From positions 1,505,005-1,569,004 of the forward strand of contig NZ_KQ955208.1 in NCBI RefSeq assembly GCF_001546115.1: a stretch of 64,000 nucleotides of DNA, read 5' to 3'. The notes beneath the pieces were generated by a model. The model was not told the DNA's origin and did no database searches. It saw only the letters and a program-made list of their open reading frames with translations. Below are positions 5,346 to 63,415 of this stretch, piece after piece. Position 1 is the stretch's first letter. Each line of letters opens with the position of its first letter. Source of the DNA: Paracoccus aminovorans. GTDB taxonomy: Bacteria > Pseudomonadota > Alphaproteobacteria > Rhodobacterales > Rhodobacteraceae. A program made the translations under genes and the position numbers.

Positions 5346-5370
5346 CTTCTTTCTTGTGAAAATATCCCGG
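5346..5370 (-). repeat. Dispersed gene-end motif, copy 1
   Basis: Read on the minus strand: GGGATATTTTCACAAGAAAGAAG. It lies between convergent ldt and hemH. It matches the copies at 9791, 23705, 23746, 35508, 36496, 54436 and 63393. Confidence 0.6.
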
Positions 5371-9790: not shown

Positions 9791-9815
9791 GGGGGTATTT
9801 GCACAACAAAGAAGG
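9791..9815 (+). repeat. Dispersed gene-end motif, copy 2
   Basis: Reads GGGGGTATTTGCACAACAAA followed by GAAGG. It fills most of the gap between the convergent marR and ubiG genes. Confidence 0.6.
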
Positions 9816-20944: not shown

Positions 20945-23650
<2,706 letters not shown>

Positions 23651-23654
23651 CCTG

Positions 23655-23675
23655 GGGGCCTTCGGGCCCCTTTTT
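23655..23675 (+). terminator. secA terminator
   Basis: Stem GGGGCC/GGCCCC with a TTCG tetraloop and TTTTT, five bases after the stop codon. Confidence 0.85.
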
Positions 23676-23704
23676 CATGCGGTGGCACGGGTGGAAAGGT
23701 TCTT

Positions 23705-23770
23705 TGGGTATTTGAGAAACAGAGAAGGATGAGCGCAGCACTTCGTCCTTCTCTGTTTCTCAAATACCCA
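23705..23770. repeat. Perfect 25-bp inverted repeat of the gene-end motif (copies 3 and 4)
   Basis: Left arm 23705-23729 begins TGGGTATTTGAGAAAC and ends AGAGAAGGA. The right arm 23746-23770 is its exact reverse complement, and the loop is 16 bases. Each arm is one copy of the dispersed gene-end motif. It lies between convergent secA and petR and could act as a bidirectional transcript end, although it lacks a T run. Confidence 0.85.
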
Positions 23771-23796
23771 TACAGCGGCGACGAAGCGCGCGGTGC

Positions 23797-24513
23797 TCAG
23801 TCGGGCACCAGCATGTAACCCGTGCCGCGCACGGTCTGCAGATAGCGCGGCTCCTTCGGGTCCGGCTCGATCTTGCGGCGCAGGCGGGTGATCTGCACGT
23901 CGATGGCGCGTTCGGAGTTCTCGCCCGGTTCCTCGACCGGATTGCGGCCCAGGTCTTCGATCAGCTCGGCGCGGCTGACCGGCTGGCGCGGCGTATCGGC
24001 CAGGCGCTTCAGCAGCGCCTGTTCGGTGCCGGTCAGGCGCAGCGGCGCCTCGCCCTGCCACAATTCGCCCTTGTCGGCATCATAGCGCAGCGGCCCCAAG
24101 GACAGGAATTTCGGCCCGCGCGCCTCGGCCGTCGGCATGCGGCGCAGGATGGCGGCGATGCGCAGCAGCAGTTCGCGCGGCTCGAAGGGTTTGGGCAAGT
24201 AGTCGTCGGCACCGCTTTCAAAACCCTCGATGCGGTCGCCGGTCTCGCCCCTGGCGGTCAGCAGCAGGATCGGCGTCGCCATGCGCTGGCGCAGGTCGCG
24301 GGTCAGGGTGAATCCGTCCTCGCCCGGCATCATCACGTCGAGCACGATCAGGTCGAAGTCGAGCCCGCCCAGCAGCCGCCGGGCCTGCGCGGCATCGCGC
24401 GCCGTGGTCACCAGGAAGCCGTTGCGCATCAGGAAGCGGCGCAGCAGGCTGCGGATGCGTTCGTCATCGTCGACGACCAGGATATGGGCCGCCGGCTGCG
24501 GATCAGGGGTCAT
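23797..24513 (-). CDS. petR: OmpR-family response regulator PetR-like
   Basis: 238 residues. The receiver domain has the acidic pair DDD (residues 15-17), phospho-acceptor Asp59 (IVLDVMMPGEDG), TAR (Thr switch) and YLPKPFEPREL (Lys). The C-terminal winged helix (LTGTEQALLKRLA, SRAELIEDLGRN, VDVQITRLRRKIE-like, TVRGTGYML) binds DNA. Sequence and pairing with a MarR-type gene match PetPR of Rhodobacter capsulatus, required for normal cytochrome bc1 expression. No sensor kinase is adjacent. Its start overlaps the stop of petP by four bases. Confidence 0.88.
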   Translation of the reverse strand: MTPDPQPAAHILVVDDDERIRSLLRRFLMRNGFLVTTARDAAQARRLLGGLDFDLIVLDVMMPGEDGFTLTRDLRQRMATPILLLTARGETGDRIEGFESGADDYLPKPFEPRELLLRIAAILRRMPTAEARGPKFLSLGPLRYDADKGELWQGEAPLRLTGTEQALLKRLADTPRQPVSRAELIEDLGRNPVEEPGENSERAIDVQITRLRRKIEPDPKEPRYLQTVRGTGYMLVPD

Positions 24514-35507: not shown

Positions 35508-35532
35508 GGGGGTATTTTTGCAACGGAGAAGA
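35508..35532 (+). repeat. Dispersed gene-end motif, copy 5
   Basis: Reads GGGGGTATTTTTGCAACGGA then GAAGA, in the gap between convergent SulP and purU genes. Confidence 0.55.
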
Positions 35533-36495: not shown

Positions 36496-36518
36496 CTTCT
36501 TTCTTGTGCAAATATCCC
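36496..36518 (-). repeat. Dispersed gene-end motif, copy 6
   Basis: On the minus strand GGGATATTTGCACAAGAAAG then AAG. It lies downstream of folD and upstream of the purU start, that is, at the folD 3' end. Confidence 0.6.
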
Positions 36519-54435: not shown

Positions 54436-54458
54436 CTTCTTTGTTGTTCAAATACCCC
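54436..54458 (-). repeat. Dispersed gene-end motif, copy 7
   Basis: On the minus strand GGGGTATTTGAACAACAAAG then AAG, in the gap between the mutL start and the M16 peptidase 3' end, and so downstream of the latter. Confidence 0.6.
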
Positions 54459-63392: not shown

Positions 63393-63415
63393 GGGTATTT
63401 GGAAAACGGAAAGAA
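63393..63415 (+). repeat. Dispersed gene-end motif, copy 8, most divergent
   Basis: Reads GGGTATTTGGAAAACGGAAA then GAA. It lies just after the SDHAF4-type gene. Confidence 0.5.

Follow-up and report, generated by a model that had tools for sequence, protein, structure and literature searches.

The window, by which we mean the whole 64,000-nucleotide stretch of Paracoccus aminovorans DNA that was analysed, contains secA (20945-23650, +; NCBIfam NF009538 and TIGR00963 over cut-off, with the Pfam SecA domains) and, convergent with it, a gene for an OmpR-family response regulator (23797-24513, -; Pfam Response_reg and Trans_reg_C). The best NCBIfam model for the regulator was OmpR, which scored below its cut-off; the name petR comes from the preliminary description. 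As that description had stated, the gap between the ends of the two genes, at 23650 and 23797, holds an exact inverted repeat. The left arm, TGGGTATTTGAGAAACAGAGAAGGA (23705-23729, +), and the right arm (23746-23770, -) are reverse complements at 25 of 25 positions and flank a 16-nt loop (23730-23745); when lengthened to 28 nt each, the arms were 96% complementary. The 20-mer core of the left arm (23708-23727) is sense with secA, 57 nt past its stop, and that of the right arm (23748-23767) is sense with the regulator, 29 nt past its stop. Since 26 nt alone separate the regulator stop from the right arm, RNA that reads through this stop would contain the stem, and the minus-strand RNA from 23796 to 23690 is predicted to fold at -52.9 kcal/mol (z = -10). 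Rfam gave no match in the window at gathering score. At E values up to 1 the hairpin matched 11 microRNA-precursor models and 1 snoRNA model, all 12 well under gathering score, and we rejected these matches as what any long stem yields.

secA has an intrinsic terminator of its own at about 23651-23675 (+), consisting of GGGGGCCTTCGGGCCCC followed by a T-run, upstream of the inverted repeat. A terminator scan of 23600-23850 returned two terminator-like matches, both at this site on the plus strand, and found no U-tract after the repeat stem on either strand, the feature expected of an intrinsic terminator. Consistent with this arrangement, a G-run/C-run stem with a T-rich tail was present in 25 of 25 gaps in which secA still adjoins the regulator, either preceding the repeat or alone where the repeat is absent. 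Because the conserved secA terminator precedes the repeat, the hairpin is not normally to be expected in the secA message, contrary to the proposal that the hairpin forms in both transcripts; the suggestion that it stops RNA polymerase likewise finds no support. These observations bear on the explanation adopted in the preliminary description, that the site is a plain RNA hairpin, either a bidirectional terminator or an exonuclease-blocking stem of convergent genes, selected for pairing alone. The very stable fold agrees with this explanation; the termination of secA ahead of the repeat and the missing U-tract do not.

Each arm of the inverted repeat is a unit of a repeat that is spread through the genome, and the locus holds one paired copy. 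The unit is about 20 nt long, approximately GTATTTG-nn-dialect-GAAG; its ends are almost constant (TATTT ... GAA), its two-base spacer varies between copies, and its inner half, the dialect, varies between species. Allowing up to three mismatches, the 18-mer core occurred 3 times in the window, compared with 0.02 expected from shuffles. Across the 4.59-Mb genome, a search with GTATTTGNNNAACANAGAAG that allowed one mismatch found 102 copies and a wider form of the pattern found 172, whereas the reversed control of each found 0. Analysis of 8-mer enrichment in 234 gene 3' flanks of this genome (window included), which used no preset pattern, ranked GGATATTT first and GGGTATTT third. Within the window, single copies lie at 9795-9814 (+) and 54436-54455 (-), sense and 25 and 16 nt past stop codons, and a copy of another subdialect lies at 35512-35531 (+) in a convergent gap, sense and 28 nt past a stop. 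The earlier remark that the motif is repeated and runs in both directions is borne out. We also noticed a second subfamily, about ATATTTnnnCAAGAAAGAAG, with copies 3' of genes at window positions 5346-5365 (-) and 36496-36515 (-) and more elsewhere in the genome.

The copies are found mainly at gene ends. In the biased sample formed by motif-centred loci, with gene calls (like the terminator calls of the comparison below and the calls of the secA-locus scan) from custom scripts rather than a published annotator, of 100 placed copies, convergent gaps contained 42, tandem gaps 48 and divergent gaps 5; another 2 fell within a gene, 1 overlapped a gene in part and 2 lay at a locus edge with one neighbour missing. 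In all, 97 were outside called genes, mostly shortly after stop codons. The share in convergent gaps is high, although such gaps make up 8.4 kb of about 73 kb of intergenic DNA (tandem, 53.6 kb; divergent, 11.1 kb) in a 464-kb background composed of the window and 20 stretches picked regardless of copies. All eight strict copies in this background were intergenic and seven were sense; five of the eight lie in the window itself. Orientation can be tested in tandem gaps only, because copies in convergent gaps are all sense by definition; single copies there were sense to the upstream gene in 19 cases and antisense in 6, and adding paired copies gave 30 versus 18. For the 73 copies preceded by a gene on the same strand, the median distance to its stop was 38 nt. 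By eye the flanks looked unrelated, save that GG is common, and ATGG frequent (29 of 100), directly before the unit. When 80 named secA loci (456 kb) were scanned more loosely, six copies turned up in four loci, all intergenic and sense, against 0 for the control; the secA-regulator pairs in L120 and L126 account for four of the six. One GGAAAG-dialect copy (window 63396-63413, +; C1:1568400-1568417) lies in an unusual context, between divergently called genes.

Pairing is common but far from universal among the copies. With 138 copies drawn from motif-centred and other DNA of this genome, neighbours within 110 nt formed 24 head-in pairs, 6 head-out pairs and 9 direct pairs. In 14 of the 24 head-in pairs 16-20 nt separate the units, and in 5 of the 6 head-out pairs the starts are 52-54 nt apart. 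Three of the 24 head-in pairs, the pair at 23705-23770 included, have identical 20-mers, so the perfect 25-nt arms are less special than they look and represent the best end of a series. When copies were scored for a head-in partner within 80 nt, the scores were bimodal: 36 of 98 had a complete partner, 60 were at shuffled background and 2 lay between. We therefore rejected the idea that the single copies are slowly decaying pairs. The 60 copies with no partner above background also count against a plain hairpin selected for pairing alone. Mosaics of three alternating copies, as well as head-out neighbours, give some sites a BIME-like appearance (for example, C1:1013926, 1454125 and 1928867).

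This layout resembles that of REP and BIME elements, which the excerpts of two REP studies (PMC3733652, PMC2817692) describe as short extragenic repeats of high copy number, found singly, as inverted doublets or in mosaics, 3' of genes in convergent and tandem gaps. Like REPs, the copies are numerous, extragenic and mostly 3' of genes, with few in divergent gaps; like REPINs and BIMEs, they form inverted doublets or alternating clusters at regular spacing. The repeat differs from REPs in several respects. First, it has no GTAG/CGTC tag: within 8 nt of 100 copies we found GTAG 0 times, CTAC once, CGTC once and GACG 6 times. Second, the unit is not palindromic; 25-nt units had a mean predicted fold of -1.16 kcal/mol, compared with -1.44 for shuffled units, and 0 of 100 reached -5 or lower. 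Third, a fixed core is combined with species dialects across the family. Moreover, a search with the Y1_Tnp model alone (PF01797) gave 0 matches in this genome and matches in 5 of 14 control genomes, and we rejected RAYT/REPIN membership on the basis of the missing match. Since the layout is alike, but the tag, palindromic unit and Y1_Tnp match in its own genome are lacking, we class the repeat as a REP/BIME-like variant in layout, with a function that we infer.

The same data bear on the possibility that the repeat is a selfish dispersed element of REPIN or MITE type, mobilized by a transposase in trans, whose position at gene ends reflects tolerated insertion. The single, paired and mosaic layout, the fixed spacing of most head-out neighbours and a patchy presence across genomes would all fit, and GTAG- and CGTC-REPs likewise favour convergent and tandem gaps, according to the excerpt of PMC3733652. 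However, the genome has no Y1_Tnp match, the single copies in tandem gaps are biased 19:6 to sense, and copies with unrelated flanks (apart from GG or ATGG) and differing spacers do not look like recent products of transposition. We consider a selfish element unlikely.

We compared the secA-regulator gap across the genus. The regulator gene is present in 124 of 125 genomes, and 90 of the 124 gaps were examined; secA still adjoins the regulator in 25. Of these 25 Paracoccus-type genomes, 16 were judged by eye to have an intact pair, 4 a partial pair and 5 none. By matching identical-looking gaps by eye, we assigned the pair to P. limosus, P. halophilus and P. shanxieyensis, a partial pair to P. 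litorisediminis, and its absence to P. kondratievae, P. ravus and P. aestuariivivens. A recent local duplication and inversion of one arm, which had been offered to explain the perfect arms, was rejected because the pair is common to 16 of the 25 syntenic genomes. With anchored arms, the inter-arm distance was 15-17 nt in 11 of the 16 intact pairs and 6, 6, 6, 11 and 23 nt in the others.

The two arms change together. Across the intact gaps (n = 16), both sides had changed in 13 of the 23 stem pairs, giving 40 double-change cells, and 95.7% of cells still paired; shifting the register reduced pairing to 40-56%. On four of five covariation measures 0 of 500 shuffles scored as high, and the fifth, further pair types, was reached by 88 of 500, in a comparison that used manually anchored arms, excluded the nine non-intact gaps and ignored relatedness (the tool warns that kinship can exceed such shuffles). 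In L203, for example, GTATTT has become GTCTTT on both arms. The preliminary description had proposed arm conservation as a check on its reading, and free divergence of the arms was not seen in any of the 16 intact pairs; the pair itself is partial or gone in 9 of the 25 genomes. Because both arms change together, the pair looks maintained, wherever it is kept, rather than accidental. Exact identity of the arms is not required, given that L200, L203, L205 and L215 share an asymmetric dialect pair. The conserved pairing and the doubly changed positions are also what a plain hairpin would predict.

By contrast, the spacer positions within the stem do not covary, which a hairpin selected for pairing alone leaves unexplained. 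The arms have the same base at one position in 5 and at the other in 8 of the 16 pairs, and at both in 4, so that spacers differ in 12. Likewise, among pairs within the P. aminovorans genome, dialect similarity exceeded permutation (p = 0.0017) and spacer similarity did not (p = 0.29). The base following the spacer tracks the dialect and is identical between the arms of all 16 orthologous pairs; the spacer and this base jointly exceeded permutation (p = 0.016), and spacer letters were A or G in 62 of 64 cases in orthologous pairs and 158 of 200 in copies of this genome. Given the three-base agreement and the prevalence of A and G, the spacer is not fully free.

The matching arms could in principle be a replication artefact, in which template switching inside a quasi-palindrome homogenizes the arms and the repeat has no function. 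One gap has a structure of this kind: in L221, which is about 1% diverged from its intact relative L217, the left arm has given way to other sequence, part of which directly repeats 19 nt of the right flank, and both visual inspection and the predicted fold show a new outer stem, suggesting template switching. However, homogenization should equalize the spacers too, which differ in 12 of the 16 orthologous pairs, and it leaves unexplained the single copies that carry the same dialect. We regard an artefact as extremely improbable.

The dialect turns over between close relatives. In a tree of secA and regulator DNA, in which 12 of 22 inner branches are open, four well-supported sister pairs have the intact repeat pair in both members. 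Three of these (L199/L209, L201/L203 and L206/L208) differ in dialect on each arm, and the fourth, L207/L212, has one dialect in common. Dialect counts covering 20 genomes showed that genome-wide copies fit the local dialect for GGAAAG (39, 19 and 42 copies) and GGTGAA (83, 34 and 54 copies; three genomes each); four genomes with a local CAGAG or CGAAG type carry 8, 70, 52 and 49 GGTGAA copies and were not separated by the counts. Across the family, GGRTATTTNNNNNNANNRGAAG was found in 82 of 248 genomes, many with one or two copies, against three control matches in all, and among the matches listed the inner half was typical of the genome in copy-rich family genomes. A narrower pattern based on the P. 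aminovorans copies was found in 11 of 61 genomes, and the 11 all belong to this genus. The P. aminovorans genome itself contains 29 GGTGAA and 9 GGAAAG copies and was likewise not set apart by the dialect counts. Several dialects coexist there, a diversity that one strict factor would leave unexplained. A hairpin selected for pairing alone, for its part, has no need of sequence dialects.

Dialects are known from DNA uptake, and a further possibility is that the repeat is an uptake-type sequence whose dialect is recognized by a competence receptor, with head-in pairs doubling as hairpins, as in Neisseria DUS. According to the excerpt of PMC3630211, Neisseriaceae DUS combine a short conserved core with a species-specific remainder and also occur as dyads, as does our repeat. 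The same excerpt describes DUS as present in thousands of copies, some of them intragenic, whereas the repeat has a longer motif and about 100-200 copies here, and 3 of 100 overlapped genes fully or in part. A role in uptake is therefore very unlikely.

Loss of the pair goes together with scarcity of the repeat elsewhere in the genome. With a broad pattern that misses the GGAAAG dialect, and whose counts an unfamiliar dialect in low-copy genomes could escape, we found 6, 1, 19, 6 and 3 copies in the five genomes lacking the pair, 28-206 in the sixteen with an intact pair (the lowest count, 28, coming from a genome that is 71% complete) and 48-116 in the four with a partial pair; the reversed control gave 10 matches in total over the 25 genomes. 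The association between pair absence and copy number had p = 0.001 in a rank test uncorrected for kinship. A word count in 400 kb of the low-copy genome G333 showed no repeat-like word among the top words, with GTATTTG occurring 0 times and ATATTTG 4 times. Because copies are few in the genomes that lack the pair, the family may depend on something in trans.

The gaps that lack the pair also differ in the secA terminator. An A-run precedes the terminator stem in 5 of 5 gaps without the pair, 1 of 16 with an intact pair and 1 of 4 with a partial pair (Fisher p = 0.0003). One possible explanation is that the A-run terminator could be bidirectional, serving both genes where the pair is absent. 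The exchange counts in favour of a plain hairpin as well as of the reading that we prefer below. The correlation contains one well-supported independent contrast, so that despite its p value we take it as a hint and not as proof.

Across the genome, the repeat does not behave as a substitute for terminators. A canonical terminator was found at 17 of 83 gene ends with a sense copy and at 17 of 192 that have no copy; in 13 of the 17 cases with both, it lies ahead of the repeat. Genome-wide replacement of intrinsic terminators is thus rejected, as gene ends bearing the repeat are not short of terminators, and because these terminators mostly come first, an RNA role is doubtful for many copies. 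Like an intrinsic (Rho-independent) terminator, the secA-regulator pair places a hairpin in a convergent gene gap; unlike one, it follows a separate secA terminator, lacks a U-tract and has a primary sequence conserved genome-wide. This pattern speaks for a DNA-level site or an action on read-through RNA over an ordinary terminator. Together with the partnerless copies, the unmatched spacers and the dialects, it leaves the plain hairpin a possible but somewhat unlikely explanation. In Rhodobacter sphaeroides, the excerpt of a study of PNPase-dependent 3' ends reports that MEME found no motif there (PMC7866481), which weighs against the reading that follows.

Our preferred reading, to which we give slightly less than an even chance, is that a gene-end repeat of REP/BIME-like layout, spread through the genome, forms a head-in pair here, that its units are recognition sites and that the stem acts mainly on regulator read-through RNA; both the recognizing factor and this function are what we infer from sequence patterns. 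Because the spacer is poorly matched between arms and many partnerless single copies have the same sequence, the sequence appears to be read, and not the pairing alone. Each unit would thus be a site for a trans-acting factor, and the specificity of this factor may drift with lineage, giving rise to the dialects. In the head-in arrangement, two such sites would also fold into one long stem. As secA ends at its own terminator upstream of the repeat, the stem would act mainly on regulator (petR) RNA running past its stop, where, as a barrier or processing point at the 3' end, it may prevent regulator transcription from entering secA.

An extension of this reading, which we consider improbable, is a lineage-wide marking of gene ends, in which a fast-evolving, sequence-specific factor would read the fixed TATTT...GAA core and the species dialect after stop codons and insulate transcription units. 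Loss of the factor would then erase the sites genome-wide, with compensating changes such as bidirectional terminators taking over. If the dialects do reflect recognition, they could lead to the factor, as a gene that is present in genomes bearing the family, missing elsewhere and varying with the dialect, and the paired arms that switch together would provide a natural mutagenesis series. A large bacterial family would also gain a REP-like repeat family that is untagged and for which no RAYT-type transposase was found. In our search of the open literature, whose scope leaves subscription papers mostly outside, no title or abstract start among the matches listed described it.

Two minor features of the copies were also seen. 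A G/C-rich stem of the GGGGGCTCTGCCCCC type lies right before the repeat in several copies of the P. aminovorans genome (for example, C1:26862, C4:42755 and C2:37504). In other Paracoccus genomes, copies of a GATATTT...TGAAGAAGAA dialect lie at gene ends outside the secA-regulator gap (L127, 3712, -; L145, 5056, -).
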